In this document: piece after piece, positions 4,602 through 63,445 of the stretch
How positions within the stretch are numbered: position 1 is the first letter of the stretch
How the letters are laid out: every line of letters begins with the position of its first letter
Assembly (NCBI GenBank): GCA_032622095.1
Contig: CP136061.1
Location: 89,706,983-89,770,982, forward strand
Direction: 5' to 3'
DNA length: 64,000 nt
DNA from: Siphonodentalium dalli
Taxonomy: Eukaryota > Mollusca > Scaphopoda > Gadilida > Siphonodentaliidae
The notes under the pieces: model-generated
Seen by the model: the letters and a program-made list of their open reading frames with translations, nothing else
The model's database searches: none
What the model was told of the DNA's origin: nothing
Made by a program: the position numbers and the translations under genes

Positions 4602-4776
4602 CAGTAATGCCCTAATTAATCGAATCCTTTAACCACAGCAGAATTATGGGTAACTTTTCAGGATTTAGCCCGAGAGCTTTCCGATGAATGGCAACAAGCC
4701 ATATTTCCGACTAAATCCTGAAAAGTTACCCATAATTCTGCTGTGGTTAAGGGGTCGATTACTTAGGGCAGTACTG
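4602..4776. mobile_element. TA-flanked foldback MITE, copy 2
   Basis: Same termini and core (gatgaatggcaacaagccat) as copy 1, TA on both sides, 175 bp. Confidence 0.82.
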
Positions 4777-4862
4777 TATGTGTTTGTTGTCAATGAACAA
4801 GCTTATCCTTTGAGTGCCCCTCTTGTCCTTGTATATATGTATACCTAAGATTCTGAAGAACA

Positions 4863-4909
4863 TAAAATTCTGCTGTGGTTAAAGGAGTCGATTAATTAGG
4901 GCATTACTG
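4863..4909. mobile_element. TA-flanked foldback MITE, half copy
   Basis: Only the right terminal half is present (ttctgctgtggttaaaggag to CATTACTG, then TA). Confidence 0.75.
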
Positions 4910-4971
4910 TATAAGTATATGAGACATGAGAACGCTCGATAGAAAATAGAATTAGATTTACTGGATTAATA

Positions 4972-5132
4972 CTGTAATGCCCTAAATAATCGACTCCTTA
5001 ACCACAGCAGAGTTATGGAGAATCACTGAGAGCTTTCCGGTGAATGGCAACAAGCCATATTTCCGACTAAATCCTGAAACATCACCCATAATTCTGCTGT
5101 GGTTAAGGAGTTGATTATTTTGGGCATTACTG
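4972..5132. mobile_element. TA-flanked foldback MITE, copy 4
   Basis: Begins CTGTAATGCCC after TA, ends GGGCATTACTG. Left arm shortened by an internal deletion. Ends about 200 bases before SLC35B4 exon a. Confidence 0.8.
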
Positions 5133-5333
5133 CACAATCCATTCTGGGAAAACTCATTCAAAAACTCTTGAGAACTTGTGATTTATATTATGTTATACAT
5201 AAACCAAATTCAAATAAAATTTATCTTATCTTCCTCAACCTGGGCACACTGAAAATTTGTGAAATTGACTATCGATCACTTGACAACATTAAACTACAAC
5301 TGTGTGATCTGTTTATCTGTTCTTTATTCACAG

Positions 5334-5447
5334 TGAGGAAGCTGGAAGTGGAAACCTGGTCACATTTGTTCAGTTCGTCTTCATCGCAATCGAAGGTTTT
5401 ATATTTCAATCCAAATTCGGTACAGTGAAGTCAGTAATACCAATGAA
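5334..5447 (+). CDS. SLC35B4: SLC35B4 exon a (probably exon 2)
   Basis: Acceptor tttattcacag before 5334 and donor AA|gtgagt after 5447. The first base completes a codon begun in the unseen upstream exon; 37 codons follow and the last two bases start a Lys codon. The protein reads [20 protein letters not shown] and continues into FIF, matching the first loop and second membrane helix of SLC35B4. A different frame is also open here but encodes a meaningless Ser-rich stretch. A TTAA-flanked MITE starts at 5480, only 32 bases after the exon. Confidence 0.92.
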
Positions 5448-32400: not shown

Positions 32401-35400
32401 CAGTATGCAAATTGCACAGGTAACTGGGTATAATGTCATCTGACAAGCTTTGAAATAGTGTGTCTGTCATTTGGAGAATGAGGTCCTCAGAGGGTGAATT
32501 TAGTGACGCTATCGTGCATGGCAGGCTAGCATCACCAAATTCGCCATATGGGAACCTCATTCTTCTAAGGCCTCAACCACTATGGGAGACCTAGGATCAG
32601 AATTAAGTTCCCCAGTTGAAGTTGGTGATGTTCACCCATTTGTCACCACGATTGTGCAATTTATCTTCTGCAAATTAGGGGATATAGAAACTAGACTTAA
32701 TGGGGAAGTAAATAAAACAATCTATTTATTTTTCTTCTGCATACTGGAAATTTTACAACTGGATCATTGGTATTTTATATGTTTCGTTTAATGAAGATCT
32801 ATGACAATCCATAAAAGTTAAAAATTGCTGACTATTAATATCTATTGAATGGCAGTGTTAAGAATGACTCTCAATATAATCTGTCTTCTTACAGGTATTG
32901 CAATGTTAATAATTGCTCTGTTCGTGTCGGCGAGAATGGGAATCTTTCAAGAGCAGTTGTACGGGAAACATGGCAAGCATCCATCAGAGGCGCTCTTCTA
33001 CAATGTATGAATAGTTATTTTGTTTTCTGGCCTACTTAGTATATTAATAGAATCCAACTTAAATTTATGTATATCATTTTTTTCAAATTTGGTATGTGGT
33101 TTACCCAAAGGAAAATACAGGTCAAGTTCAAATTTGGGTTTGGTCGGCCTATTTTTATCAGAGTTATGTCCTTGTTGACTTAGAATTTGCTGATTATTTT
33201 GGAACTATAGTTTAATTATCTGATTATTTTCAAATTTGATAAGTGGATTACCAAAATGAAAATACAGGTCCAGTTCAAATTTGGGTCAAGCCTTGAAATA
33301 GGGTGTCTGTCATTTGCAGAATGAGGTCCCCAGAGGGTGAATTTAGTGATGCTACCCCACATAGCGGGCTAGCATCACCAAATTCACCCTCTGGGAACCT
33401 CAAGGCTTGATTTGGGTTCAGTCTGCCCATGTTTAGCTCAACTTGACAAACCGATTTATTGTCTTTAATGACTTAGAATTTGCCATTATTTTTCAAAGAT
33501 TGTTTTCAAATGAAAATACAGGTCCAGTTCGAAGTCAAGTTTAAGCTATTACCATCAGTTGGTGTACATCGTTTGTTCGCCCGAAAGTGCACTTGTGATG
33601 TGAATTTGGGGAAATCGGCACACAATTTCGATTTGTGAGGTGATTTTGCACTTGAGAGTTGAAGCTCACAAATCGTCACTTAAAAATGCGTTTAAATTGT
33701 ATTAGTGAGCTACAGATGAATTCCTGTCAGTCCTGTCAGTCACCCCACAATGAAAAATGGTTTTCACATTTTGTTCATTTCAAACGGATGGTATCATCCA
33801 ATTAAATCATTGCATTTTCTGCATACCACAGGTGTGTTTTCTTTTTATCTAGACCATGTGACACTGGTCGAAAACTAGTTTGTGCACCTGTGATTGAAGA
33901 GTGATTGATGTTATCAATGGTGATCAGGTTTATCAACTTTACTGGCTAATGAAGCGACAACCAATTGTTTTTCAGTATTCCATGATTGATAGGTTATGAT
34001 TAATTCTAATTCACTTTGCATAAAGGGTAAATCCAATTTCCGCCATGCCGATTGTCAGTTGCCCATGTGTAGCTGTCTTGACTTCTGGCACTGATACATT
34101 GCTAATGGCTTGTCAGCAGTGTAGTACATTGGTTCAATAAGGTCACGTAACTTGCATTTATTAATATAATTTAATCTATATCCTCATGGAGCAGCAGATA
34201 ATTTCTAGGAGGAAGCGACATGGATTGTTTGTAAACTGTCAATCATGTCCAGTTCAGCAACTAATGGATGATTTAATGATTCTCATGTCCATAGCATCAT
34301 TTTTCAGTCGGAGTGAATAGGATGGGGATAAACATGCTGTCTGTTGTGATTTTTTGACGTTTATCAGTGGGTTTTGTGACGTTTATCAGTGGGTTTTGTG
34401 ACGTTTATCAGTGGGTTTGTGACGTTTATCAGTGATTTTGTGACGTTTATCAGTGATTTTGTGACGTTTATCAGTGGGTTTTGTGACGTTTATCAGTGGG
34501 TTTTGTGACGTTTATCAGTGGGTTTTTCAATGAAAAATATCCTCCTATAGTCGGTAAAACAGAATTTTCCATATATATATAAATGAACAGAGATACAGTC
34601 AATTCCAATTAATCGAATAACGGTTAATCAAATAATTCGTTTATTATAATAATATTTCGGCTTCCAATACCATTTTAATAGTACATCTGTATTTTTTAAT
34701 TGCTTATTCGAATAGACTCCCGATGGGACTATCGCTTAATAGAAAATTCGCAAAAATGTGCTCTGAAAGTCGGTATTTTCGTGCATTCTAGAACTCAGTT
34801 GAAGGTATTTCATCCAAAATATTATAGTTTATGTCAAGAAACCGCAGACAATCGTATTAGATCGAAAATGGGTGACATAAAACGTTTCAAAAGCGAGTGC
34901 TTTACGGTCATAAGTTACTATAAGAAAGTGATTTTTCAATTAAATGTGAATATTAAAATATTATAATAACACTTGTCTTGTTGTTTTATTGCCCAACATT
35001 CCCATAATTCACGCCATGATGATGATGATAAGGTGATTTGGGGGGCTAATAATTCACGCCATAAATGACAATATTAAATTTTGTAAGCAGTGCGGGTAAA
35101 TCCCGCATCTATAGTCTATTGTTTATATCAATAAACCTGACGCTTTATTCGTGATCCGTTGTCCACGTAGAGGATGAACAACATTACAATAGCGACTAAT
35201 TGCATGTTTAACAAAAGCCAGTACTGTAGTTGGACAGACACATGTTAGCGACTCGGTTCTTTTGTATTTGATGTCTGAACATGCATAAAGAATTAGACTG
35301 TACAAACTGTTTTGTTCGTTTCACACTCTATGGCGCGAACAAAGGATTGTCCCATTAATGATGACAGCGTGTTTGTTTAAGTATGTGTTTGAGTACACCC

Positions 35401-38400
35401 GCTAACAAAGGGCAAATTAACGTGTCACTTGTAAAAACAAAACCAGGGCTATTATAAATGCGATGCTGTGGGTACACCAGTCATAATTACTCAGTCATTA
35501 TGAACTCGAAACGAAAGCGCAACGACCTCTCCCTGGCTGATAAGTTTGAAGTGATTAAGTTACTAGACCAGAAGTTTTCTCAGACTGAAATCGCGAAAAA
35601 GTTAGGTTGTTCGCAATCCCAAGTGTGTCAAATCAACAAGAAGAAGGATGACATCAGGCAGAAATTGGAGTCTATGTCAACCCGCTAATGAAACGACAGA
35701 GAACCGGCAAAGCTGCAGATGTTGAGAAGGCCCTCGTTACATGGTTTGACAACACCCGACACCGCCCTTACCAAAAACTGCTAACCTAAAACCACATTAG
35801 ATCTAAGCGGATTTCTAATCTGATCGCCAACGTAGAACTAATGTAGAACTAATGTTGTAATTTAACTGTCAAAAGTGAGATGGGCGGAGCTTAAAAACTA
35901 ACATATTGCACATGTGGTCAGGTTAGCGGATATGCACACTAGTTATACGTTGGAAAATTCTCAACCAAATTTTTAACGTAGAACTAACGTGCAAATTTGC
36001 TAACATAAAGCATATGTGCAATTTTATAGCCCTTAAGAGCTGTAAAATTGCACATATGCTTTATGTTAGCAAATTAGCACGTCAGTTCTATGTTAGTAAA
36101 TTTCACATCAGGAATGTATAAAAATGCCACATGTGCAGGCAGGTTATCAAATTAACTTTAAAGTAATTATACATACGTCCAGCAGGGTAACAATTTGTGG
36201 AAAAAAACACACACAAACAATATATCATACCATACGGTATTGCTTTTAAAAACTATATAAATACATAAAATATACATCACATACACTGCAATGTTCCTGT
36301 TAACTGCTCTTCATGGAATATTCCAAATAACTGTAAAAATCACTTCGATGAAAACTGCCATAAATTGTTTATTTCCTACAATTCATTCATTTTGTAAATA
36401 GATTCGCACATTTGTTCTGTCTAATTACTAACTAGAATCCATAAACAATAGCAGAATTTAGATTATTTGATGTGATGGTCCATCATTATTTATTCTAGAA
36501 ATCAGATTGATAGTATTTGAAAATAAAATTTAAATCAACTTTAATATACATGTAGTCTACCTGGTTGATAAATTAGATATTAGAACACGCAGTAAAGGCA
36601 CACAAGAGACCCTTAAACTGCCATGATGTGCGAATGAGATATGAAAACTGACAAAGGATTCTATATATTATTATACATGAATGAATAACTGAATAATTAT
36701 AAATTGACCCTTAATTTCAATGTAAAAACCATAATACTATCATTATGAAATGTTTAAGGTTCAATTTTGGAAAGGAAATTGACAAAAGTAACGATTTTCT
36801 CGTGTCTTAAATTCTTAACTGTTATTTTAAATGCATGCAGTCACTTACCCTGCCATGAAAAAAAACAACGAGGTTTTAATTCGCCAAACAAGAACAATTA
36901 CTTATCCTATCAGTCCCACAGAAAACAAGCAGCTTTAACTTGGGAACATATCTAAGGTAAAGGTTTTCAACTACTCTTCTTAATATATGCTGAAAAGCAC
37001 TTGTGTGAATTATAGTTTGCCGTACATTTGAGAAGATTCCTGTCTGTAGTTTATTCCAAACTTTTTACTTTTCACTATTTTATATACATTTTCTGGGCAA
37101 ATGAAACTTCCCATTTTCACGAAGTAGAAAATTCCTCTTCCTGTTTTGATCCCAAGATATAAATATGTTTTTAAATTTTTTACAGGGTATTAGGAAACAT
37201 TTTTTTTAATTTGCACAAAACATATATTCAGTTTTGTAGTCTCGTAACTCGTATATTGTTTTTTAATTTTTATTGAAATGTTTTTTATTTTTATTTTTCC
37301 AGCATTGTCTACCACTACCTGGGTTTATTTTCCTAGCAAAAGATATCTACAATCAATTAGTCCTATATAGTCTTTCAGGTAAGGTTAATCCTTTCTATAC
37401 TAAATTGATTTCCCCCGCACTCAGTTATAAAAGTATACATTGGAATGTTCTATTATTCATCGGGAGGGATGATTTGGAAAAGTAAGCTGACGACAGATAA
37501 TAAAAGTGCAGAAGGAGTCTTATTGATTGGAGGGAAATGTTCAGATAAAAAGTTCAACAAATGACCTATGTCATTTGATGAACTTATCATCTGAACATTT
37601 CCTAAGGGATAACAACTCATCAATGAGTATTTAGTATGGAAAGGGTTAATGTGTAGGACCTTTCTACTTGACATACGACCCTCCAAATATAGCATTTATT
37701 TATGTTTGGAAGAATAAAATATAAAAAATAAAATTTGCCCTCCCGCCCCATTTTTCTGAAAAAGTTGGATGTAAATATAGCAATTTATTTATATTGCCAC
37801 AGATACCGGCTTTATATCACACGCTAGCAAGGCAATATAATTATAGCATTGTTTTATGTAACCTGCGAATAAACCATTAGCTTTTATCAGGCCTCGAAAT
37901 ATGATGCTAGACATTTGCAGAATTTAGTCCCCAGAGGGTGAATTTAGTGATGCTACCCCGAACAGTAGGCTAGTATCACTAAATTCACCCTCTGGGGACC
38001 TCATTCTGCTTAGTCCTCATCTTCTCTGGAAAGTATATTTATTATCAAACTAACAAGTTTTTTTTAGTTTCTTTAGAATCTTCTTTAAAAAGTTTTATTT
38101 TTTTCAGTTTAGTTTCTCTATATCCCCAAATTGGCAGACAACACGATGCTTAATCGAGGTGCTCAAGGGGTGCACATCACCAACTTCACCATCTGACAAC
38201 ATAAATCTTTGTCTAGGTCTCCCATATATAATATAGAAGTGATCAGAGAAAATTGCATACCGATAATAGAGTATATATTATTTTTTATATAGTGGCTGGG
38301 GTTAAACAAAAATTAATATTGATTTTTCCGCCAAGGAGAAGCCCTTCAACTGAACTATATGGATTATTATCCTCGGCCTTGTGTTATCAGGAGGGTTAAA

Positions 38401-41400: not shown

Positions 41401-44400
41401 CCAATAGTTTAATATTGAATCAACGGTTACTGTAACCATGCACATTTTGTCAAGAGGGAGAGGGCAACATTTAATGCTCGTGAATTAGAGAATTACAAGT
41501 GCATACGGGTGCGAGTACAATTGCTCCTGTCATCTGGGAAGGACTGAGACTTCTGACTCTTCCCCACGGTCCATGGCCCACTCCATTACGGGAGTGGGTC
41601 TTGTCCCCCTGGAATCATTCTCCCTCGGGATATGTCCAGGCCTGCTCTACCTTCGGAGGACTTTCCGTACGCGTATAAAACATTCTCCTCACCGTAAGCA
41701 AGGGCACCGCGAAAACTGTTCTTGCACAGGAGAAATCGGTTCTCATCGTCCTCTTCGCCGAGAAGTGACAGTATCTTACCTGCAGTTTAATTTCTAGCAG
41801 GTAAGACCACGTGGCCACATAATGAACGGAATTTACCTTATTAACATTATTTTGCATTAACTAACAAAATGTTTTGTGTATTACGCTTGCTAATAACTAA
41901 CAGAATGTCTTGTCTTGCTTATGGTCGACTAGATTCGACTTTGATGGCCACACACCGTGCGGGTTGCTCAAGAAATAAACGCGGCAATATGCGGTATTGT
42001 CATTGTTGGATGAGGGCCCGTTGGTCCATGGTTAAACAATTTGAGCAAACGTACCAGTCTTATCTCGGGTAGGACCAGTTCGGCCCCCCCGGGTCCTGCA
42101 TCAGCAGACCATGGGAGGCAGCGTGCCGTTCTCGGAGATTCGGGCAACCAATCCTCCAGGACATCAGCACCCGCGCCTTTGGCGGCTGTTCTGGGTGGGG
42201 AAGTCTCGATGTCCGGGGCCGCTCAATGCGCTCCAGCCAACAGGCCTTCTGACACTTTAGTTAGGGAGCCCGCATATGTTCTATTTACACTTTTGCGTAC
42301 AAAAGGTTTGACCCCCTAAAGTTGGTACCAATAATGGAACATTCTGAAAAACCGATTTCTTAAGTTGCGCATTCCTGGGGTTTAGGGGCCGCTGAACCCC
42401 AAAAAGTGCCAAAAATCACTTCTATTTACACTTCTGCGTACATCGATGAATTTTGGTTTGATGATACTCCTAAGTGTACTGATTAAGAAAACACAACTTA
42501 AGAAAGGGTTTTTCCTGGGGTTTTCAGATAAGAAAGGGGGTCCCATGCTGAACCCCAAAACGTGATTTTTCACTTTTTTTTACACTTTCGCGTACATCCA
42601 TAATATTTGGTCTCAAAGTACTTTGATATATACTAATTATAAAAACACAACTTAAGAAGCAACTTTTTCTGGGGTTTTAAGTCAAGAAGGGGGTCATCGG
42701 GTCACCCCTCAAAACGTAAAAAATCACTTTTATTTACATGATTGCATTCGTCCAACGTGTGTGTATGTGCGCACACCCCTGGAACGTTGCACTATTACAA
42801 CCAATACATCCCTAAATCGATACGATAAACTTACGAAATATATATTCATGTCGTTTTCTGATAATAACGAGACTTGTTACCCCATGAATGATATGTGGGT
42901 ATATATGGAGTGCCCTGTTGGTATCTTTTGTGATTCTGGTCATATTATTGACAGGAATGGGCAGAACTTTGAGACGGAACTGAGATGAACCATGATGTGT
43001 GGGTATTCTGGTCCAATATGACTGTTGGTAACGGGTGGGACGTATATTTATATATGTTGTGGATGTGTTATCATTGGTGGTGTATGGGGAGTAGATTTAT
43101 TATCATGGCGTGTATGAGTATGGCAAGTATGGAACTCATGAGTGGTCGTATGTGCGGATATTGGTATATCTGGAAGGGCACGCCATTGGTGGTGTGTATA
43201 TGTATACCTGGATTGACTCTATGGGCATGGGTATGGCGAATAGGTATACACGTAGTGGCTGTATGGTCCATGGTGAGGTGAATATGTATACAATGAGTGA
43301 CTGTATGATCGTGAATGTAGTGAATATGTATACATACAGTGACTATATGTGTCGGTGTAGGTGTATACCTGGTGTTCAAGCATGGTGACTCGTGGCTGTA
43401 TCGTCATTTGTGGTATGTACGGGTATAACCAAGTATGGCTGTATGATCAGGTGTACTAGTACATGTACGTGTATAAAGTGGGTGACTATGTTGTCATTTG
43501 TGTGGTGGTGTTTATGTACATATGGAGTGACTGGAGTAATGGGTGGGTTGTACATGTGTACCTTGGGTGGCTATCGCTTTCCACAATAACTCAATGATAT
43601 GTTGATCAATAGAGAGGTCATGTCATATCGTGGAAAGCGATAGCCACCCATTATCACACAGTCATTACATATATACATAAACACCACAGCCATTACAATA
43701 TAGTGACCCACTGAATACATGTACACCTGACCCATGACCACGGATGACCATACAGCCAAGCGTCACAGTGCAGGCACACCGGGTATACTCCAAAACATGA
43801 CCCATAACCATATAGTCACTCATTGTATACCCATTCATCTCACCATTGGCCACAAGGTCATCCCCTGTATACCTATTCTCCAAACGCATGGTCAAATAGT
43901 CAATCAATATATACATCAACACCACAACAATGACCATAAAGTCACTCCGGTATACATATGCACATCACCAATGGCCATATAGCCACTCGCTTCATACACA
44001 TACCCTCACCCATGTTACCTGGTATATTCATTCACCTGACATGTGGCCATATAGTCACCCCGTGTGTACCTATTCAAAACATTCATACACGATCATGGTC
44101 AATCCTTGTATATATATTCACCTCAACATTGGCCATGTCAATCCCTGTATCCCTATTTGTCACACCATAGCCGAATAGCCACTCAAGATATACTAATACA
44201 CACATCCATGTCAGTATAGTCACTCCATGTATGCATATGCACCTCATCCATGGCCATATAGCCACTCGCTATATACACATATCCCTCGCCCATGGCAATA
44301 AAGCAACACGTGTGTGTACTGGTATAACCTACACATGACGATACCGAGACGAGTCACCAAACTAGAACACCAGGTACATGTATACTCCTACGCCTGTCAC

Positions 44401-47400
44401 CCCCTGTATAGCTGTTCATTACATTTATGATCAGACTGTCACTACTTGTATACCTACATGTACTCATATCACCATTAACCATACAGTCACTACCTGTATA
44501 CCTATTCGACACACATAGTCATATAACCACTCGATATACATATGCAGCCCACCCTAGACCATAGATTCACTCCAGGTATACATGTAAACCTCAGTAATGG
44601 CCATTCAGCCCTTCCAGATATACAAAAAATATACGACCACTCAAACAATCCATACTTGCATATACACCTCACACATGACAATTCAGCAATCCACTGTATA
44701 ATCATACACGCCATCCATGATAATACAACTAAGCCCTATACACCCACCAATGATAATACATCCACGAGATATATAAATATACATCCCACCCGTTACCACA
44801 AGGACACTCCCTATGTACCCACACGCTCGATAATGTCCACCCAGCTTAATCCAGGTATTCATATTCAATCATGACCGTACAGTCATTCCATGTATACCTA
44901 TACACATTACCCGTAACCATAAAATCACTACCTATTTATCCACACACCCCATCCATGATCATACAGACAACACATGTACATCCCACCCATGACCTTACAG
45001 TCACTCCATATATACATAATCAACACATAGATGACCATGTAGCTATATCCATACACCACACCAATGACCGGGTGCACCCGTACTGGATATACACAATCAT
45101 ACACCATACAGTCACTACATGCATACCGATTCACCCCACACCTGACCATGACCTCTCCCTGTATACCTAGATGCATCTTACCATGGACAACTCACTCATA
45201 ACCATATAGTCACTCATTGTATACCTACTCACATCAGTCATGACATACAATAACTCCCTGTATACCTATTCACCTCACATATGATCACAGAGTAACTCCC
45301 TGGCTACGGTCTTGGCATCCACACTGTATCCTGTTGACATTTTTTGTTATCATAATGGACCAGAATAGCCAAAGATTATGGTCCATCTCAGTTCTGTCTC
45401 AAAGTTCTGCCCATTTTCTTTCAATAAATATGGCCAAAATCACAAAAGAGGTTCTCGGCAAAATTACATACTTTAAAATGAATTTGTCATGCCCCATTCG
45501 GAACTGGGACAACTGGGAATAGAACATGTAGTTGTTAGTTAATTAACTAACACGTGTAATAACCAAGTGAGTTACAATTTGCTACCTTTTCGGATAATGC
45601 AGAGAATGTTCGGGATATATGTAAAAAATTACTATTTTACAAATTTGGTTGCCATTTTGGAAGCCATCTTGAGCAATTTGGTCTATAAAACACCGTAGTG
45701 TGACACATTTATGATAGACCAAAACAATAAACACCTTTCAATCCAAAGATAGTTATATTTTACGTGAAAACATGGTCTAAACCTGAAAACTTAATTTTTG
45801 CCAATATTTATGTCAAGTTTGTGAGAGAAAAGTCCAATATTTTTGACGATGTCAGTGGTGAAAATAGTAAGAATTAACCATGGTGCATCAGACATGATAG
45901 TATTCAATGTATATAATGCAGAATAGCCAATTATGTACATCAACACAACTTGTAAGCGATTGCAGGACACGCTGGTGTAATATTTACCATTTTCCATATT
46001 TTGGCGGCCATATTGGCAGCCATTTTGAGCCAAAGTAAGAATTTTTGTTCCAGTAATTTGGAATAATCATAGGTAATGATATGCCTCACTTACATTACAA
46101 AGTTCCACGTGATACGTCCAGGCCTGCTCCTCTGCCGTCATGGGATCCTAGTGGTATGTCATCAACGTTTATTCCACCTTGTCTGGACCACCTGCATTCG
46201 GGAGATTCGGTGGGGGGGTTTTCTCTGGTCAAATGGATCCTTCTAATTTTATCTTTTTGCTGACCTTATGGCATTGGGGTGGGCCAAAGCACCTTAACTT
46301 CAACTGCGAGAGCATTTATACCTCGTTCGAGCCATTCCCTGAGTGGGCTTCCCTATAGTACCTTATCTCAACCTGATGCAGGGTGTTCTGTTGCTGTGGT
46401 CGATACTGACATGCTTCCTATACTTCTCATGGCGTCTGATGGCTTTGACGACGATGGGCAAGAATCACGGGATTCTGTCGTTCCTAAGGAACTCGCTTTG
46501 CGTATGGAAACGAAATGGGTCGATCTCTTGTACAAAACTTCATCACAGGATATTGTCAACTGACTTACACAAACTTGCACAACTGTACCAGTCTTTACCT
46601 CGGGATGAACCAGTTCGAGCCCCATGGTCCTGCACCAGCAGTCCGTGGCAGGCGGGGTGCCGTTCTCGGAGATTCGGGCAACCAATCCTCCAGGACAATT
46701 GCACCCGAGCCTTTGGAGGCTGTTCTGTGTGGGGACGACTCGATGTGTGGCACTGCATGGGACGTTTCTTCCTAAAACCAGGGGGGGGGGGGGGGGGGGG
46801 CAGGTACAAGCTTGAGCAATACTGGAATCTGAATTTATGAGCTATTTCACATAACATATCAAAGCTGATTCATGACTAAATCACATTTACATGACATCTG
46901 TTTTGGAAGAGTACATTCCCGTCAAACTGGAATATTAAATTTATTGCTCGTTGCCTCCTCCTGGGCTTGCATTCTAATCCATATAGTTCAGTTGAAGGGC
47001 TTCTCCTTGGCGGAAAAATATAATTTTTAATATTAAAATTAGTTTTTCCTCAAGGGAAGCCCGAAACTGAACTATCATATATCCCTCCCATGGCGGTGCC
47101 ATTCCCAACCCCGCGACACTCCCTATGTACCCACACGCTCGATAATGTCCACCCAGCTTAATCCAGGTATTCATATTCAATCATGACCGTACAGTCATTC
47201 CATGTATACCTATACACATTACCCGTAACCATAAAATCACTACCTATTTATCCACACACCCCATCCATGATCATACAGACAACACATGTACATCCCACCC
47301 ATGACCTTACAGTCACTCCATATATACATAATCAACACATAGATGACCATGTAGCTATATCCATACACCACACCAATGACCGGGTGCACCCGTACTGGAT

Positions 47401-48828
47401 ATACACAATCATACACCATACAGTCACTACATGCATACCGATTCACCCCACACCTGACCATGACCTCTCCCTGTATACCTAGATGCATCTTACCATGGAC
47501 AACTCACTCATAACCATATAGTCACTCATTGTATACCTACTCACATCAGTCATGACATACAATAACTCCCTGTATACCTATTCACCTCACATATGATCAC
47601 AGAGTAACTCCCTGGCTACGGTCTTGGCATCCACACTGTATCCTGTTGACATTTTTTGTTATCATAATGGACCAGAATAGCCAAAGATTATGGTCCATCT
47701 CAGTTCTGTCTCAAAGTTCTGCCCATTTTCTTTCAATAAATATGGCCAAAATCACAAAAGAGGTTCTCGGCAAAATTACATACTTTAAAATGAATTTGTC
47801 ATGCCCCATTCGGAACTGGGACAACTGGGAATAGAACATGTAGTTGTTAGTTAATTAACTAACACGTGTAATAACCAAGTGAGTTACAATTTGCTACCTT
47901 TTCGGATAATGCAGAGAATGTTCGGGATATATGTAAAAAATTACTATTTTACAAATTTGGTTGCCATTTTCGAAGCCATCTTGAGCAATTTGGTCTATAA
48001 AACACCGTAGTGTGACACATTTATGATAGACCAAAACAATAAACACCTTTCAATCCAAAGATAGTTATATTTTACGTGAAAACATGGTCTAAACCTGAAA
48101 ACTTAATTTTTGCCAATATTTATGTCAAGTTTGTGAGAGAAAAGTCCAATATTTTTGACGATGTCAGTGGTGAAAATAGTAAGAATTAACCATGGTGCAT
48201 CAGACATGATAGTATTCAATGTATATAATGCAGAATAGCCAATTATGTACATCAACACAACTTGTAAGCGATTGCAGGACACGCTGGTGTAATATTTACC
48301 ATTTTCCATATTTTGGCAGCCATTTTGAGCCAAAGTAAGAATTTTTGTTCCAGTAATTTGGAATAATCATAGGTAATGATATGCCTCACTTACATTACAA
48401 AGTTCTGTTCATTTCTTGTTGAAATATGACTAGAATCCCAATTGTGATTTTTTTGTGAAATTTTATACCGCATTCTGTACAATCGAATTTTTGAGGGATC
48501 GGAAGGGGTTAGGACCCCAATAATTGCATATTTAATTGCTCCAATGATCATTTAATATACAAAACACAAAATAAAGTTGCATTACTCAAACAGTTCCAAA
48601 CAGCATGAATTGATCTAGAAGATTTTTGTGAAAAAATGTCATATTTTCAACTTCTGGCGGCCATTTTGGTGGCCATCTTGGATGGTGAGTTTCAATTTTG
48701 GCCCAAAAAGTGTCATTATGTCTTATCTTCACGAAAATATATACATTTGTATACATTTTACTAGATTTTCCAGCTATAATTTTCATAAAACTGGCTCACT
48801 TATAATTCTAGAAAATGGATCCGGTTGT

Positions 48829-48864
<36 letters not shown>

Positions 48865-50232
48865 GGGTAACAAGTCTCGTTCTTATCAAAAGAAGACATG
48901 AATATATATTTCTTAAGTTGATCGTATCGATTTAGGGATGTATTGGTTGTAATAGTGCAACGTTCCAGGTGTGTACGCACATACACACACGTTGGACAAA
49001 TGCAATCATGTAAATAAAAGTGATTTTTTACGTTTTGAGGGGTGACCCGATGACCCCCTTCTTAACTTAAAACCCCAGGAAAAGTTGCTTCTTAAGTTGT
49101 GTTTTTATAATTAGTATATATCAAAGTACTTTGAGACCAAAAATTATGGATGTACGCGAAAGTGTAACAAAAAGTGAACAATCACGTTTTGGGGTTCAGC
49201 ATGGGACCCCCTTTCTTATCTGAAAACCCCAGGAAAATCCCTTTCTTAAGTTGTGTTTTCTTAATCAGTACACTAATAGGAGTATCATCAAACCAAAATT
49301 CATCGATGTACGCGAAAGTGTAAATAGAAGTGATTTTTGGCACTTTTTGGGGTTCAGCGGCCCCTAAACCCCAGGAATGCGCAACTTAAGAAATCGGTTT
49401 TTCAGAATGTTCCATTATTGGTACCAACTTTAGGGGGTCAAACCTTTTGTACGCAAAAGTGTAAATAGAACATATGCGGGCTCCCCAACTACTTCCCCAC
49501 GGCGCCGTGGCCCACCTCATTACGAGAGTGGGTCCTGTCCCCCTGGAAACGTCATCCCACGTGATACGTCCAGGCCTGCTCCTCTGCCGTCATGGGATCC
49601 TAGTGGTATGTCATCAACGTTTATTCCACCTTGTCTGGACCACCTGCATTCGGGAGATTCGGTGGGGGGGTTTTCTCTGGTCAAATGGATCCTTCTAATT
49701 TTATCTTTTTGCTGACCTTATGGCATTGGGGTGGGCCAAAGCACCTTAACTTCAACTGCGAGAGCATTTATACCTCGTTCGAGCCATTCCCTGAGTGGGC
49801 TTCCCTATAGTACCTTATCTCAACCTGATGCAGGGTGTTCTGTTGCTGTGGTCGATACTGACATGCTTCCTATACTTCTCATGGCGTCTGATGGCTTTGA
49901 CGACGATGGGCAAGAATAACGGGATTCTGTCGTTCCTAAGGAACTCGCTTTGCGTATGGAAACGAAATGGGTCGATCTCTTGTACAAAACTTCATCACAG
50001 GATATTGTCAACTGACTTACACAAACTTGCACAACTGTACCAGTCTTTACCTCGGGATGAACCAGTTCGAGCCCCATGGTCCTGCACCAGCAGTCCGTGG
50101 CAGGCGGGGTGCCGTTCTCGGAGATTCGGGCAACCAATCCTCCAGGACAATCGCACCCGAGCCTTTGGAGGCTGTTCTGTGTGGGGACGACTCGATGTGT
50201 GGCACTGCATGGGACGTTTCTTCCTAAAACCA

Positions 50233-50271
<39 letters not shown>

Positions 50272-53200
50272 GTACAAGCTTGAGCAATACTGGAATCTGA
50301 ATTTATGAGCTATTTCACATAACATATCAAAGCTGATTCATGACTAAATCACATTTACATGACATCTGTTTTGGAAGAGTACATTCCCGTCAAACTGGAA
50401 TATTAAATTTATTGCTCGTTGCCTCCTCCTGGGCTTGCATTCTAATCCATATAGTTCAGTTGAAGGGCTTCTCCTTGGCGGAAAAATATAATTTTTAATA
50501 TTAAAATTAGTTTTTCCTCAAGGGAAGCCCGAAACTGAACTATCATAGATCCCTCCCATGGCGGTGCCATTCCCAACCCCGCGACTCGCAAATCTTCTTA
50601 TTAAAAGTCGGAAATAAAACTGGCTAGATGAATTGTTAAGAGCGCGGGATTTGCACAGGACGCATTCATGCGTGAGATAATCCGATCGCTGATTGACCGG
50701 AGTACGCAATAAACGGACAATAAATTTTAACCCTCCTGATAACACAAGGCCGAGGATAATAATCCATATAGTTCAGTTTCTGGCTTCCCTTGAGGAAAAA
50801 CTAATTTTAATATTAAAAATTATATTTCCTTATCACAACCAAAGAGGACGTAAAGATAACTTCAAGAAAAAACATAGTTCCATTTTAAATGTGTCTTTTC
50901 ATGTTGACAAAATTTTTCAACCACACTTATCACACATGTTTATCTCACAGCCACACTAAATAGCCCAACATAAAGTGATTATCATAGTTATATTCTTAAT
51001 AACATAATAATAAAGTTCTGGCATTGACATAAAAATTATTGCGCTAAGCTCTCGCATCACTGTGCAGATAACACACGTGTGTCTTACGAAAAAATATGAG
51101 GCCGGATTTATGGGCTAATTACGTTTTGACTCACGTTTTATTACAGCCATTTTACATAACGTCCGATCTTTGTCCTACATATATCAATATTATGTCCATC
51201 AATATAGCATCAGATATTTCATTGGCTCTTGATTTCTTGGTTTGACCATTTCTCGAAATCAACGAATAAAGGACCCCCACGAATTAATTTTGCAGTATGT
51301 ACATGTAGATGGTTGGTTGAAATTGATGATTTTTAACCTGCATTTTTCTTCCTATGTCTTGATTTATTCCATAGTGTTTTGTTTCATCATGTATCTTTAT
51401 CTAATCTATTCACTTGTAACCAAGCCTGGAAATAGGTTTCTGACATTTGCAGAATGAGGTCCCCAGAGGGTGAATTTAGTGATGCTATTCCTTACAGCTG
51501 GTTAGCATCACCAAATTCACCCTCTGGGGACCTCATTCTGCTTTGGCCTTATCTTTTGGGAATATCTAGTCTCAAATTAACATTGTTTTAGTTACTTTTT
51601 CCCTTCTGTTTATATATCCCCTAATTTGCATAAGATAAGATGCATTATTGAGGTGACTAATGGGTGAACATCACCAACTTCAACTGGGGAACTTTAATCT
51701 GATCCTAGGTCTCCATAGCAGTTGAGGCCTGAGCAAAAAGAGGTTCCCAGAGGGTGAATTTGGTGATGCTAGCCTGTCGTGTGGGGTAGCGTCACTAAAT
51801 TCACCCTCTGGCGACCTCATTCTGCAAATGTCAGACATGCTATTTCCAAACTTGCTTGTAACAGTATGGGTATCTTGACCTGTTTTTATCTATTTCAGCT
51901 CCTGTATCTGTTATGGGTTTCATGGTGCCAAAGATGTATTTATACCTGCTGCTCAACACACTTACACAGTATCCTTTAAAGTGATATGAAGCATTCCAGT
52001 AGAGTGATCAAATAGCCTTGAAATTGCGCGTCTGTCATTTGCAGAATGAGGTCCCCAGAGGGCGAATTTAGTGATGCTACCCCCGCATAGCAGGCTAGCA
52101 TCACCAAATTCACCCTCTGGGGACCTCATTCTGCTTACAACTCAGCAGAATGAGGTACCTAGATGGTGAATTTGGTGATGCTAGCCCGCTATGCGGGGTA
52201 GCATCACTAAATTCACCCTCTGGGGACCTCATTCTGCAAATGACAGGCACGCTATTTCAAGGCTTGGTGATCAAATAGAAATGGAGAATAATTTTGCTCA
52301 AAGTAGTTATTTTTACAAATATTAATCCAACTTGACAACAAACACCATCATTCTTATATATTAATTAAATACAATGACTCTCGGTGGAGAAATAATTTGT
52401 GGTAGTTTTTCGCCAAGAATTGCGTCCCGAATCTAGATGTAAATATTTAAATTTGAGCGTAGTTCAGATGATGTTTTCTCTGGAGTGGTATGGTTGATTT
52501 CTTAGAAATGTTCACAATGTTAGTAGAATGCTACATTCCCCTAGTTGGCATAGCGCCTGAGTACTAACGTATAAGTACCATGCACCCGAACAAGTCCATA
52601 ATATGTCTTTAAAGTGATATTAATTACTTATTTGATGTTCATAATATGCCATATGCTATTAGCATAGAATAGATAGAATAAATACTATGTGTCAAATATT
52701 AGCCACTAAGAACAACGCGATTTAAAATAACATAAAAACGTGATTGGTAACATTTCATCCAATCGTCTCGGTCTGGAATCAAGTATCTCAAAATGCAAAC
52801 ATAGTTAGCACGAAGTGAATACCGGGGGTAAAAAATATTTGATTCGAGTCGAGGAACCCACCCATCAATGCTCAAGAGTGATCAGATATCAATTTTTGAA
52901 ATCTTTTATTTTTCACCACCGGTCTCGGACCAAATTGCGGATGAAAATGGATAACACTAAAATCAAGTGGTTTAGTGTTCGATATATGACAAACCGGCCA
53001 AATTGAAAAAAATGCTGATAAATAACAGGTTTTCAGCAATTTTATACTATAGTTGACTGTTGTTAGCATTACTTTTGGGCAATTAATTGATTCTGATAAC
53101 TGAAGTGGCATTTCAAAATTTTGTTGTTGTTGTTGGAATCTGATGATATGAGGACCAATGAATTGGATTGAATACCTTTAACATATTTAACCTGTAAATT

Positions 53201-56200
53201 GAATGTGGTCATTTCCACACTTCTGGTTTGTCACTAATCAATTCAAGTATGTTTTGTATCCATGCTAGGAAACAGGAATGGTGGCTCGACTGTCATTTCT
53301 ATTCACAGTTGCTTCACTCGATTTTGATAATCTGTTTCTTCTCGTCGTGATATGGCTTTATTGCTAAAACGACGTTAAACCCCAATCAATCAATCAATCG
53401 ACTTTCGGCATATACATTGTTTATGTAAAGCATATTTTGAGCTACACTTTATGTATTGGGTTTTATGGTGCCAAAGATGTATTTATACGTTCTGCTCAGC
53501 ACCCTTACACAGAATCCTTTAAAGGTACTCAATCTGATCAGGCGGGTCCCCATATCAAGATACAACAACAACAACAACATTTCTTCAAAATACGCTTTAG
53601 TTATCAGAATCAATTAACTGCAACAAAATAATGCTAACCACTGTCAACAATGGTATCAAATTTCACAAAACATGTTATTTATCAGCATTTTGTTCAACGA
53701 AATATGTCCGTATTATCACTTGAGTATCACAAAATTTGGCCGTATTACCACTTGATTTTAGAGTTATCCATCCTAATCCGCAATTTTATTCCGAGACCTT
53801 TGGTTTGAAGGCTGTTTTCTGGGCCACAAATAATTTCTTGAGAAATAACGAACTTCAAAAATTTATATCTGATCACTCTGAGCTTTGATGGGTGGGTTCC
53901 ATGACTCGTATCAAATATATTTTACCCCCAAAGCCAAAGAAATAGTCAATTGGGAGCGTTAATTCAGATAATGCATCTTTATAGTGATATTATGTACTTT
54001 TTTGATCGCCATATGCTATTAACCCTTTATTTACTGAATGGATTCTCCCGTCAGTTATAAAAGTATACATTGGAATGATATATTATTTATTTAGAGGGGT
54101 GTGCAGATAATAAAAGTTGATGACAGACATAAAAAACAGATAATACAAGAGCATAATGATTCATATTCATTGGTGGGAAATGTTCAGATGATAAGTTCAA
54201 TAAATACGATAGAGATGGGCGGTACTCGGTATTTATTACATGATCCTACCCTTATTCCATTCAATAAACCCATTCTATAAATTGTGATATTAAACGTTCG
54301 TTTAATAACAGGAAATAGTGCCAGGTAGCCTTTGACTTCCGGTTTGTCATCTGTTAACACTCCGTACGCTATGTCTCAAAACACTATGGCTTCCAATATT
54401 TTTCTAACAAACTATCATGAATGAAAAGTTTGAAAAGTTATGTCATTAACTATACGCCATTGAATGCGCCAAAGAGTCTTTAGTTATAGGGACTATTTCT
54501 TTACGCGGGCAAACAACGAATAGTTACGTGAAACGTCATCGCATGCCTTATAGAAGCTGATGTTACTATCATGTTAGTTTCGTGTCCCATTTGTTGATTT
54601 AAGTATGTTTTGTCGATGTTTTGAATCATGTAATAAATAGAATCTTCAACTCGTCCCCATTTTATAGCGGAAATGACAAAACTCGTCCAGTAAATTAGGT
54701 CTGGACCTCGCCAAAGGCTCGGTCCAGACCTAATTTACTGGACTCGTTTTGTAAATTCCGCTATAAACTGGGAACTCGTTGTAGATCCTCTATTTACCAT
54801 GCGGTATCGGTATCAGTGTAATACCGATTTACCGTACCGAATCAAAACTAAAAATACCGAATTTTCGGTATTGAAATTATTGATGTGTTGCCAACTTGTG
54901 TGTCTTCGTATTGAGTAAAGTTTCTCAGTAAACAGTTTTGATTCGGTACTTTAATTAAAATTAATCTCAGAATTATACAAATCCATCAGACCATCACAAA
55001 GAACCCGACTGGTAAAAAGCATCCACTTGATAAGAACTCAGCTGACTGTGGCCTGTTATCAGTTTGACAGGCCTTGTGCTCACAGATGGCTGACCTAGTT
55101 ACGGGCCTAACAATCAATGCAGTTGTTAGAATAGATACACACTACACAGTGTATCAAAGAAGCTGTGCTGTAATGTATTGCTACATTGTAACGTCGTCAA
55201 TGCCACACTGACTGTCACTGTGTAATACTCAGGCGGTGGCAGTCCGTATAGCACGTGGCTTTGGCGACTTCAAAGACACCGACAATGCAAGCGGCATAAA
55301 CAGAAATAAGGCCGATTTCATTTATACAGTGAATCAGAATCTACTTTCACTTTCTAAAAATAGAACAGATCCATCAATTGATTAAATTCTAAGATTTATT
55401 TCGCGTTGCGACTATTGATAGAGATTTGTGAATTGTGATCACTGATTACTACTCACAATTCTATTCATGTGACGAAATTGACACGTATTGATATTGTATC
55501 CATGCAATGATGCAATCTCTTATTCTTTTCAAAAGCGGTGCGACGGTGTGCATGTAAATCATCAAAGAGATGTGTGAATATCACTTAATTGAATAATTGT
55601 GTAGGTCATTGTTTTGCCTCATTTAGCTGTTGTCACGATTGTAGTAAATCCGTGGGCATATATACATGTATATGTTCAGTTAAAAACTTGAATTACCAAA
55701 ATTTACCGGGAATCTCTACTCTGGTTTTATAATTTAATAGCATTACCGTACCGATACCGCGGTAAATCAACGAAAATTTACCAATACCGATACCGAGCTT
55801 GAAATTTCAATACCACCCATCTCTAAAATACGACTCCGTCTCTTCACTTTTCATCTGCATAGTTAGTTAGTTAGTTTTAAACATATACATCATGAGTGAG
55901 ATTGGTGTCAATGCTTAATAATTTTATGCATTGTAAAGTTACAGCACTTCCACATGGAAGTAGTGTAGTCAAAGGAAATCTGGGCCATACATATTCCCCA
56001 CATGATATAATTATAGACAATATCACATGAATTGTATGCTAGTAAATGTTATTGTCCCTAGTTACGGGCCTTTTTGTAAGGCCTCATTTAGCTATTGTCA
56101 CGAATGTAGTAAATCCGTGGGCATATATACATGTATATGTTCAGTTAAAAACTTGAATTACCAAAATTTACCGGGAATCTCTACTCTGGTTTTGTAATTT

Positions 56201-59200
56201 AATAGCAATACCGATTACCGTACCGATACCGCGGTAAATCGATGAAAATTTACCAATACCGATACCGAGCTTGAAATTTCAATACCGCCCATCTCTAAAA
56301 TACGACTCCGTCTCTTCACTTTTCATCTGCATAATTAGTTAGTTAGTTTTAAACATATACATCATGAGTGAGATTGGTGTCAATGCTTAATAATTTTATA
56401 CATTGTAAAGTTACAGCATTTCCACATGGAAGTAGTGTAGTCAAAGGAAATCTGGGCCATACATATTCCCCACATGATATAATTATAGACAATATCACAT
56501 GAATTGTATGCTAGTAAATGTTATTGTCCCTAGTTACGGGCCTTTTTGTAAGGCCTCATTTAGCTATTGTCACGAATGTAGTAAATCCGTGGGCATATAT
56601 ACATGTATATGTTCAGTTAAAAACTTGAATTACCAAAATTTACCGGGAATCTCTACTCTGGTTTTGTAATTTAATAGCAATACCGATTACCGTACCGATA
56701 CCGCGGTAAATCGATGAAAATTTACCGATACCGATACCGAGCTTGAAATTTCAATACCGCCCATCTCTAAAATACGACTCCGTCTCTTCACTTTTCATCT
56801 GCATAATTAGTTAGTTAGTTTTAAACATATACATCATGAGTGAGATTGGTGTCAATGCTTAATAATTTTATACATTCATTGTAAAGTTACAGCACTTCCA
56901 CATGGAAGTAGTGTAGTCAAAGGAAATCTGGGCTATACATATTCCCCACATGATATAATTATAGACAATATCACATGAATTGTATGCTAGTAAATGTTAT
57001 TGTCCCTCGAAAAAAAAAAATTCGGGGGACTATAGAAACGGGCTCCATCCGTCTAGCAGCCGTTCATCCGTCCGTCACACTTTTGAGTACCTTCATGGTG
57101 TAATCATCTCCTCCTACAGATTTCATCCCAGAGATTTGAAACTTCAGAATATTGTTGCCGATATATTGAAGATGAGCAACATGTATATAGATGACAGAAA
57201 AATTATTTTTTGACGGGAGTTATTAACCCTTTTCGACTTTTCAACTATCAAAATTTCAACATTTTTTTTAATTCCTTTAACAAAGCGGCATCGACTTGCC
57301 ACATTTTCGGTGGACACTGTGGTCAGCTGACCTTTATCTTTATAATGACATAATATTAATGACAGTTTTGCTGTAGTTTGATCAGAACATGCTCTGATAC
57401 TCAACAGTATAATAAGCTGACAGATTCCCGTTTAACGCATGAGTGGTGACAAACAGACGCAGTATGAGCGACCTTGCTCAAGGGTTACAACATGGCACGG
57501 GATTTGAAACGGCGAACAATCCTACAATGCACTTCGCTCAAAGCAGCCAAGCCACTGCTGTGTGAAGACTCACAATAGACCAGCTAGTCGCTGCTAACTC
57601 GTATCGTGTTTACAGCGAACACAAGTCGGACACGCTAACCACTGGACCACGGAGCTCCACATTCAGGGTTCGCGCTGCCACTTGCCAAATTTACCAATGG
57701 CAAAAATAATTCACATTTGGCAAAAATAATTCACATTTGGCAAAAAATATTTTCATTTGGCAAGTCACTTTTTATACGCCCGTTTGAAAAAACAGCCGTA
57801 TTATAGTATTGGTCTGTCGAGCCGTCCGTCCAGGCGTCCGGGCGTCCGTTAACCTGGTTTCCGGATGATAACTTTAGTTAGAGTGAACCAAATTTAATAA
57901 AATTTGGTATGTGGGTTTATTAGCCGAAAAGTAAGTTCAAGTTCGAATTTGGGTTCCGCCCGCTAATTTTCACCGGAGTTATGCCCCTTATTTGACGTTT
58001 TTTTTACTTAGAAAATCCTTGAAATTTGTCGTCCGGATGATAACTTTAGTATATTTATCGGAATGAATCCAAATTTGGTATATAGAGGATCTCACATGAG
58101 TTCCTATTTTATACGGAATTTATCAACCGAGTTCACTAAATTCGATTTGAGCCGAGGTTTACCGAGGCTCAAATAGAATTTAGTGGACGAGGTTGATAAA
58201 TTACGTATAAAATAGGACGAGTGTGAGATACCTTTTATCACATGATCAAATAAACCCGAAGCAACGCGAAATATTCATCGAAAACAACAATCATAAACTA
58301 TAGCGATCGCAAGTTATTTGAAGAACGCCGTGACGTCATCGCACGCGCTGATATTAAACGTGTCTATTACCGATAATTATGAAACTGCTTTTATGGCCAA
58401 ATTATGTGATAAATTACTTTCTCCCACCAAAACACAGGTCAAGTTCGAACTTGGGTTCTGTCTGTTATGCCTTTTTTGACTCAGAAAATTCAGTTTTTTA
58501 TGCCCCCGACTTGAAGTAGGCGGGTATATAGTCGACGTCTCCGTCCGTACGTACGTCCGTACGTCTGTACATCCGTCTGTCCAAACATTTTGCATTATTG
58601 TTCAGCAGATTTAGCTGATATTTGGTATGGTGATAGAGCAGCACGGGGGAAGAGCTACATGCATAGCGCGGGTTTCGTCCACCCATTTTCACCAGAGTTA
58701 TGGCCCTTTTTTACTTAGAAAATTCAATTTATTCCGTCCATACAAACATTTTGCATTATTGTCCAGCAACCGCTGGGCAGATTTAGCTGATATTTGGTAT
58801 GGTGATAGAGCAGCATGGAGGAACAGCTACATGCATAGCGCGGGTTTCATCCACCAATTTTCACTAGAGTTATGGCCCTTTTTTTACTTAGAAAATTCAA
58901 TTTTTTTCTGTTTTTTTTGGGGTTTCCAAATGATAGCGCAAGCTTTGGTGGTACGATTGCAAATCCCGTATTTTTGTGGATCAGTTATATGAAAATACAT
59001 GTCAAGTGTGAATTTGGGTATGATCTGATGATTTTTGCCAGAGTTATGGCCCTTTTTTTTCAACTTAGAAAATTAGAATTTTTGCTTGTTTTTGGGTTTC
59101 CGGATCGCTTGTTTTTCGGTTTCTGGAATTTCTAGTACGAACTTCTTTTGGAATGGTCATATAGACCTCCTCGGATATCCGCTGTTTCGTCCATGCTTAA

Positions 59201-60544: not shown

Positions 60545-60695
60545 CAAGCCTTGAAATAGCGTGGCTGTCATTTGCAGAATGAGGTCCCCAGAGGGTGAAT
60601 TTAGTGATGCTAGCTCACTATGCGGGGTAGCATCACTAAATTCACCCTCTGGGGACCTCATTCTGCAAATGACAGACACGCTATTTCAAGGCTTG
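60545..60695. mobile_element. CAAGCC palindromic MITE, 151-bp near-perfect hairpin
   Basis: Stem of about 68 bp with one mismatch, loop about 15 bases. No clear flanking duplication. Open frames on both strands across it are shadows of the palindrome. Confidence 0.9.
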
Positions 60696-61922: not shown

Positions 61923-62095
61923 CAAGCCTTGAAATAGGGTGTCTGTCATTTGCAGAATGAGGTCCCCAGAGGGTGAATTTAGTGATGCTACCCCGCATAG
62001 TGGGCTAGCATCACCCGCTATGCGGGGTAGCATCACTAAATTCACCCTCTGGGGACCTCATTCTGCAAATGACAGACACCCTATTTCAAGGCTTG
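61923..62095. mobile_element. CAAGCC palindromic MITE with 8-bp duplication
   Basis: Flanked by TACATGTA at 61915-61922 and 62096-62103. The loop contains an extra partial copy of 'tagcatcacc'. Confidence 0.85.
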
Positions 62096-62109: not shown

Positions 62110-63445
62110 GCATTATTAGCTCAACTTACTTTGTAAGTTTGAGCTATTGCCATGGTTTGGCATCCGTCGTCCATTTGTCCGTCAACAATTTCCTTTGGCG
62201 CGGGCTACAGGTCGTACCTTTGGTCTGATCTTTATGAAAATTGTCATGAATGTTGACATTGACATGTAGATGGGAACAAGTCATTTTGGGGTCATTCCGC
62301 CAAAAAACATGGTCGCTGGTGGCCATCTTGGATTTCAAAATTCAATCCATAGGCGCGGGCTACAGGTCGTACTGTTCGTCTGATCATCATGAAATTTGTC
62401 ATGGATGTTAATATTGACATGTAGATGGGAATGAGTGATTTTGGGGTCGTTCGGCCAAAAAACATGGCCGCCAGCAGCCATCTTGGATTTTACTCTTTGC
62501 ATGACTAAATCCTTTGGCGCGGGCTACAGGTCGTTGCGTTGGTCGGAAGTTCATGAAATTTGTCATGGATGTTAACACGGACATGTAGATGGGAACGAGT
62601 CATTTTGGGGTCGTTCGGCCAAAAAACATGGCCACCAGCAGCCATCTTGTATTTTACTCTTTGCATGACTAAATCCTTTGGCGCGGGCTACAGGTCGTAC
62701 CTTTAGTCTGATCTTTATGAAATTTGTCATGAATGTTGACATGTAGATGGGAACGAGTCATTTTGGGGTTATTCGGCCAAAAAACATGGCCGCTGGTGGC
62801 CATCTTGGATTTCAAAATTCAATCCATTGGCGCGGGCTACAGGTCGTACTGCTTGCCTAATCATCATGAAATTTGTCGTGGATGTTAATATTGACATGTA
62901 GATGGGAACGAGTCATTCTGGGGTTGTTCGGCCAAAAAACATGGCCGTCAGCAGCCATCTTGGTTTTACTCTTTGCATGACTAAATCCTTTGGCGCGGGC
63001 TACAGGTCGTAGCTTTGGTCAGATCGTCATGAAATTTGTCATGGATGATAACAATGACATGTTGATGGGAACGAGTCGTTTTGGGGTCATTCGGTCAAAA
63101 AACATGGACGCCAGCAGCCATCTTGGATTTTACTCTTTGCATGACTAAATCCTTTGGCGCGGGCTACAGGTCGTACCTTTGGTCTGATCTTTATGAAATT
63201 TGTCATGAATGTTGACATTGACATGTACCGGTAGATGGGAACGAGTCATTTTGGAGTCATTCGGCAAAAAACATGGCTGCCAGCGGCCATCTTGGATTTC
63301 AAAATTCAATACATTGGCGCAGGCTACAGGTCGTACTGCTTGTCTGATCATCATGAAATTTGTCATGGATGTTAATATTGACATGTAGATGGGAACGAGT
63401 CATTTTCTGGTCATTTGGCCAAAAAACATGGCCGCCAGCATTAAA
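62110..63445. repeat. tandem array of 155-165-bp repeat, second array
   Basis: About eight units with the same landmarks as 6352-9050, opening with the same 'agctcaacttactttgtaag' leader. Breaks off in mid-unit near 63441. Confidence 0.88.

Follow-up and report, generated by a model that had tools for sequence, protein, structure and literature searches.

Long inverted repeats built of tandem repeats are carried by FB of Drosophila melanogaster and by the Rehavkus-type Mutator-like elements (MULEs), which make target-site duplications (TSDs) of ~9 bp. Two other Drosophila systems are foldback or foldback-like. Tetris, from Drosophila virilis, is an element for which no transposase copy was found, according to the sections of its description used here (PMC4079207), and for Galileo an excerpt reports that one copy in D. 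willistoni, the longest, has its inverted repeats extended by ~140-bp direct tandem repeats (PMC4168063). Here we describe a satellite-bearing foldback transposon in a 64,000-nucleotide stretch of the scaphopod Siphonodentalium dalli (contig CP136061.1), the whole of which we call the window. This foldback is a real, recently mobile family and not a single oddity. With a probability of roughly 0.9, we read it as a non-autonomous cut-and-paste DNA transposon of foldback form, with terminal inverted repeats (TIRs) and an intact length of ~6.08 kb; cut-and-paste transposition fits because of its ends, the fixed length of its TSDs and its mobility as a unit.

An initial annotation of the window had proposed a foldback element at 42258-49491 with inverted ends and arms made of a satellite. 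The copy is laid out as follows.

42258-49491 (7,234-bp interval): foldback transposon copy
42255-42257, unstranded: left copy of the 3-bp TSD, CTT; the rejoined flanks match paralogous 41550-41647 with no junction gap
42258-42882 (625 bp), plus strand: left TIR, the outer part of the shortened left arm; 96.8% identical to the inverse of 48865-49491
42274-42728, plus strand: three degenerate ~150-bp tandem units in the left TIR, each beginning near a TTTACACTTTYGCGTACA-like motif
42896-43574, minus strand: ~42-bp satellite, short side, from profile matches
42924-43021, plus strand: inner left arm remnant, inverse of 47662-47761 (87%)
43565-43584, plus strand: left arm of the central 20-bp perfect hairpin
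43585-43629, unstranded: central 45-bp spacer; of 32 fetched copies examined, 26 have both hairpin arms, and 25 of these share the 45-bp length
43630-43649, minus strand: right arm of the hairpin, exact inverse of 43565-43584
43646-44802, plus strand: ~42-bp satellite, long side, first part, from profile matches
44803-46105, plus strand: duplicate of 47115-48405 (satellite end and inner right arm), with one mismatch and one 12-bp gap
46106-47114, unstranded: copy of right-flank DNA within 49557-50585, not transposon; three mismatches and a 16-base difference in a G run
47115-47650, plus strand: ~42-bp satellite, long side, second part, from profile matches and comparison with the intact copy L019
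47651-48864, plus strand: inner right arm, apparently non-coding, with a poly-G run; contiguous with satellite and TIR in L019
48865-49491 (627 bp), minus strand: right TIR, with the same three tandem units as the left
49492-49494, unstranded: right copy of the TSD, CTT

The inverted ends that bound this interval are confirmed. The left end is TAGTTAGGGAGCCCGC at 42258, and its inverse lies at 49491 with one mismatch; the interval opens with TAGTTAGGGAGCCCGCATATG, whose inverse closes it, and the end motif of the element, TAGTTRGGGAGCCCGC, has inverse orientations at the two ends. A 19-base end pattern, allowing up to three mismatches, matches the window twice and none of 100 shuffles. The identity of the two TIRs holds over 627 alignment columns. 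Within them the TTTACACTTTYGCGTACA motif starts at 42284, 42425 and 42579 and its inverse at 49448, 49307 and 49151; with up to two mismatches allowed, these six are the window's matches, against zero in 100 shuffles. Adjacent ~150-bp units are ~73-74% alike where they align. Tandem repeats, a feature of the foldback class, are thus present both as three ~150-bp units per end and as the ~42-bp satellite.

As an outline of the element, the proposed interval holds for its transposon ends but not for its contents. Because 44803-46105 and 46106-47114 copy other sequence, ~2.3 kb of it is a later local duplication, and the second of these blocks is not transposon, since its match is the right flank. 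The sequences bordering the duplicated block are contiguous in L019, and 46105-47117 repeats 49557-50585 with junction microhomologies of 1 bp and 3 bp. The window copy stands in mirror orientation to L019 and is an atypical, damaged member of its family. Next to the remnant at 42924-43021, its left arm is missing ~1.2 kb, which in L019 lies around element position 4175-5477. We hold it at somewhat under even odds that the 2.3-kb duplication is an assembly artefact in which two alleles were laid end to end, a question that touches the window copy and not the family. The divergence of the duplicates is allele- or error-like (one substitution in 1,291 aligned bp and three in 1,013, plus the 16-base G-run and 12-bp differences), but the junction microhomologies are what real end-joining or a template switch would be expected to leave; chance can also give such matches. 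Long G runs (~20-40 bases) occur at 48829-48867, about 46781-46800 and 50233-50268; that of the right arm recurs at the same place in other copies, and run length differs between the duplicated copies of the flank.

The satellite has a period of 41 to 43 bp, and lag 42 gave the strongest autocorrelation in all three stretches tried. A profile gave 35 matches of at least 8 bits, compared with two over 50 dinucleotide shuffles of the region combined; it was built from 14 monomers of the same region, which makes the count, not the strand pattern, partly circular. In the element as a whole there are 44 matches (E ≤ 1), all nine to the left of the hairpin on the minus strand and all 35 to its right on the plus strand, so the inversion that the annotation had described around a 45-base spacer with perfect 20-bp hairpin arms is as it said. 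Folded as DNA, 43555-43660 has a z score of -7.9, and none of 200 shuffles folds as well. When flipped, the left satellite at 43026-43564 is colinear with 44185-44798 at a score of 399 (32 unflipped), and 200 permutations of its monomer order reach at most 280. Because the colinear alignment stands so far above the permuted monomers, the two sides are linked by inverted duplication, beyond merely sharing a satellite.

The exact 16-base end occurs 637 times (312 on the plus and 325 on the minus strand) in the assembly of 2,226,750,531 bases and 9 contigs that was searched, the window's left end being one of these, and the reversed-pattern control gave no match on either strand; that no other copies would share these ends is thereby refuted. 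At two ends per copy this amounts to at least 319 copies or end-bearing fragments, with copies whose ends are altered, such as the window's right end, as extras. Many of the 100 ends listed among the 637 are paired, plus with minus, ~6.05-6.1 kb apart. We fetched 58 of these 100, namely 19 such pairs (38 ends) and 20 ends with no listed partner; two further listed pairs were excluded. The pairs are covered by 20 stretches, the single ends by another 20 (L037-L056), and one stretch, L057, is short. Copies were chosen by spacing and strand, not at random, and frequencies among them should be read accordingly. Counts of duplications and hairpins exclude L039, L047, L050, L051, L053 and L055, in which the second end could not be placed, as well as L057 and the two halves of a 12.3-kb interval (L031/L032). 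In search of separate families, ends in which position 17 is not A were counted; there are only 11, and one of them, L057, reads as an ordinary copy over its first 1,197 bases.

The intact element is conserved in its inverted architecture. A 6,087-bp consensus of nine copies, picked from 18 for their absence of large indels, has arms at 1-1962 and 4164-6087 with the satellite core between them, so that ~1.9-kb inverted arms form most of the element, together with the inverted satellite. The view of the arms as satellite therefore applies to the inverted core and fails outside it, where intact copies have ~1.9 kb of non-satellite arm on each side. Over ungapped columns the nine full-length copies are 96.1-99.6% identical; L024 and L027 share 99.4% and as a pair are 96.1-96.7% identical to a cluster of six, and L018 is 96.2-97.3% identical to the rest. 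Within the cluster identity is 99.1-99.6% with gaps uncounted (97.8-98.2% to L019 by gapped BLAST), and because six copies are this similar, the 6-kb foldback has moved recently as a unit. Both hairpin arms are found in 26 of 32 two-ended copies, one arm in three and neither in three, and the exceptional spacer, in L018, is 26 bp. Satellite orientation could be scored in 29 of the 32, of which 28 have no match on the wrong side and one, L046, has two. Monomer matches number 6-8 on the short side and 18-27 on the long side, except in L036 (19 and 1) and two satellite-free copies. The satellite looks like a passenger of the transposon, because most copies have similar monomer numbers and because, from copy to copy, it has diverged about as much (~1-3%) as the inner arms. 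The two satellite-free derivatives are short: L029 has 1,952 bp and a 3-bp TSD, and L030 has 687 bp, a 4-bp TSD and only ~93 bp retained at one end, a length that may suffice if L030 moved in that form.

Identical 3-bp flanks border 28 of the 33 two-ended copies, counting the window copy, at a chance expectation of ~1 in 64 per copy, somewhat higher in A/T-rich DNA. The triplets are TAA (6), ATA (5), TAT (5), CTA (2) and ten singles, and 18 of the 28 consist of A and T alone. For the window copy, the flanks rejoined with a single CTT align to a paralogous empty site with no gap at the junction, and 11 of 12 bases match up to and including CTT. This site exists because the right flank has a diverged counterpart in the left flank, where 41559-41647 matches 49492-49581 at 84% and 42038-42212 matches 50024-50198 at 83.5%. 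A target duplication of TA, suggested by the terminal TA, was rejected on the empty site and the 28 of 33 copies with 3 bp. The surrounding DNA has two diverged tandem units, 41550-42212 and 49492-50198 (84% in two conserved blocks), and the element sits close to where the second begins; one open reading frame (ORF) and one translation from the diverged tandem flank unit have no Pfam match. Hundreds of ends, fetched copies of the same inverted architecture and these TSDs together bear out the annotation's central claim, that this is a foldback element.

One copy preserves a product of copying between the arms. In L035 (G000:C1:10683985-10689837, with flanks in L009/L010), ~207 bp of the left flank is repeated in inverted form (97.6%) immediately beyond the right end; past it, a further terminal repeat runs for ~183 bp and is followed by AAT, which is also the triplet in front of the left end. 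All 183 of 183 positions in the repeat adjoining the inverted flank match the left repeat, and the outer, original right end differs by eight substitutions and two gap positions. An initial reading had given this copy a 2-bp duplication; on checking, AAT does follow the outer end, and counting L035 in effect brings the copies with a 3-bp TSD to 29. This is most simply explained if, while the right arm was being copied, the template changed to the left arm, copying continued through the left end and 207 bp beyond it, and the original template was then resumed. The arms of this element can therefore template each other, the direct evidence coming from this one copy.

Divergence within the element is graded in a way that such copying could produce. 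In the consensus, the outer 600 bp of the two arms differ at only two positions (598 of 600 identical); deeper in, identity per 100 bp is 83-97% with gaps uncounted. It is 90.2% over the whole arm (BLAST) and ~64% between the sides of the satellite. Divergence of copies from the consensus is likewise lowest at the ends, 0.5-0.8% in the outer 600 bp and 1.0-3.4% elsewhere. The same inter-arm trend is followed by the 17 single copies profiled, and these together with the nine-copy consensus are the basis for the gradient. Arm-to-arm copying near the tips, selection on ends that bind a transposase, or both, would give it.

Searches for coding content found no gene attributable to the element. Ten proteins, comprising nine window ORFs (one of them inside the element) and one translation, gave no Pfam match at E ≤ 0.1, nor did the 6 of 12 ORFs of at least 85 aa of L019 that were searched at E ≤ 0.01. 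Frames of at least 165 aa were placed throughout L017-L056, and all six of those inside two-ended copies, the longest being 212 aa (L041), are without a Pfam match; frames outside this search are L031 (170 aa), L050 (6816-7460), L052 (199 aa), L055 (199 aa) and the second L053 frame. Reverse transcriptase is matched by frames in L040 (296 aa) and L048 (211 aa, below the curated cut-off and straddling the element's end), both outside the element or in stretches without a second end; frames of 412 aa in L039 and 232 aa in L052, likewise outside the element or in stretches of that kind, match nothing in Pfam. The longest frame of L019 (161 aa) lies within the satellite, whose ~42-bp period leaves frames with a 14-aa periodicity; such frames were not read as genes because the period varies from 41 to 43. 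The inner right arm of the window copy was translated in six frames and inspected by eye only, and a transposase split into short exons would escape ORF-based Pfam searches. The window has no Rfam match and no tRNA, and its longest stop-to-stop frame is at most 172 aa (38.5% GC, CpG observed/expected 0.79), features that, taken with a genome of this size, indicate a eukaryote. A phage collection gave no match to 42258-43640, eight stretches of viral contigs share a 15-mer and none reaches 18 bases, which we take as chance, and a 21-base motif had no match in viral and genome contigs. Within the terms used, no title or abstract in the open-licence literature describes the element.

Several observations weigh against our account. 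Copies carrying a transposase, which the annotation had suggested looking for, were sought among the copies read, and neither a transposase nor an autonomous partner was found. The arm-to-arm product occurs in one copy only, and in the window copy the contrast between outer and inner divergence (1/162 vs 17/463, p = 0.054) is not significant. Taken alone, the empty site of the window copy modestly prefers CTT (score 68) over no duplication (66) or TA (63); CTT was accepted because the other copies decide. Even with L035 explained, four of 33 copies have no 3-bp TSD (none in L017, L024 and L056; 4 bp, TATA, in L030), and the cores of the short derivatives may have been deleted after insertion.

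Because no copy read encodes a recognisable transposase, we infer that one is supplied in trans. This transposase, encoded elsewhere, would bind the TIRs at the 16-bp tip and at the three subterminal ~150-bp units with their shared motif; it would cut the element out and reinsert it mostly at A/T-rich triplets, leaving a 3-bp TSD. The satellite core would be carried along as a passenger, mostly without fresh amplification in each copy. During repair or replication the two arms may pair, and template switching from arm to arm, with or without selection on the ends, could keep the outer ~600 bp near-identical as the inner arms and the satellite drift apart. In this account the window copy entered at CTT, is now short of ~1.2 kb of its left arm and was involved in the local 2.3-kb duplication that includes its right flank.

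Two further proposals concern the transposase. An origin as a deletion derivative of a PIF/Harbinger-type element specifically would agree with the 3-bp TSD and the A/T-rich targets, and we consider it doubtful: as far as the consulted part of PMC4482050 describes them, PIF/Harbinger elements duplicate TWA and their repeats usually begin with A or G, but the repeats here start with T and seven of the 28 TSDs are TWA (TAA six times, TTA once). We give a similarly small chance to a bolder proposal, in which a transposase outside Mutator and P, possibly of an undescribed 3-bp-TSD lineage with TAGTT termini, drives the family, and in which the inverted satellite and hairpin snap the arms together and thereby let the TIRs be repaired continually by copying from arm to arm. 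It is very improbable that the inversion and palindrome are artefacts of a misassembled tandem array; foldbacks are hard to assemble and the near-identical local duplication of the window copy could be false, but separate insertions, which have TSDs of their own, share the inverted architecture, and this argues strongly against an artefact. A satellite-carrying Helentron/Helitron-type element like the oyster HINE can practically be dismissed, since these elements, also mobile carriers of short satellite-like arrays in the portion of PMC7492417 consulted, leave no TSD and have only short subterminal inverted repeats, whereas 28 of the 33 two-ended copies of the foldback carry a 3-bp TSD and its terminal repeats run right out to the ends.

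Two of the fetched stretches hold other sequences of interest. In L050:815-7462 (G000:C1:161605739-161613200) a foldback copy runs for 755 bp before it is broken by an insertion with ORFs for a deoxynucleoside kinase (Pfam dNK, 7.5e-54), a PC4-domain protein (3.5e-21) and a packaging-ATPase-like protein (Pox_A32, 0.005, below the curated cut-off); we record this virus- or Polinton-like insertion as an observation. L053 opens with a truncated foldback end and has a 186-aa ORF, with a zinc-finger-like start as judged by eye, twice in inverted orientation at 3628-4188 and 5314-5874; one of the two was searched, with no Pfam match. The window itself contains a further very long inverted repeat (18997-21930 / 23848-27289, two aligned blocks of 75% and 88%, with an (AT)n run at the centre), a ~155-164-bp tandem repeat in two arrays ~54 kb apart (6465-8331 and 62191-63440) and a 472-bp unit in three tandem copies at 55616-57007 that are 95-98% alike. 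Repeats of ~120 bp, mostly self-complementary and resembling miniature inverted-repeat transposable elements, occur in at least nine places:

32444-32563
33287-33402
37888-38009
51421-51541
51733-51854
52014-52134
52145-52266
60545-60695
61923-62095

This family extends the foldback form to another, unassigned transposase group, in a multi-copy, recently mobile element with 3-bp TSDs, and it is a case of a satellite carried as the fixed core of a transposon. With L035 preserving an arm-to-arm product together with its overrun into the flank, the old question of what keeps the arms of foldbacks identical can be put to the test in a single genome, which offers hundreds of natural copies.

The likeness to FB and Galileo that the initial annotation saw is one of architecture, and does not extend to membership: the TSD is 3 bp in 28 of 33 copies, compared with ~8-10 bp in Mutator/MULEs, FB and the Rehavkus type among them, and 7-8 bp in the P superfamily, and no transposase links the element to either. 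Zator shares the TSD length of 3 bp, the one property on which it was compared, as given in an excerpt of PMC10045372. Academ and CACTA are further superfamilies with 3-bp TSDs. Galileo, of the P superfamily, has foldback-like long inverted repeats and TIRs that grow by repeat expansion, as the cited portion of its description relates (PMC4168063), but it has a P-type transposase and TSDs of 7-8 bp. Tetris comes near in being non-autonomous, with long inverted arms, an outer flanking domain and tandem repeats in the arms (TIR-220), in the sections of PMC4079207 drawn on here. Those sections give it 8-10-bp TSDs, a suggested Mutator affiliation and ~220-bp repeats in its arms, whereas the S. 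dalli element has a core of 42-bp satellite that flips at a fixed hairpin, and it is set apart from both Tetris and Galileo because its TSD is 3 bp.

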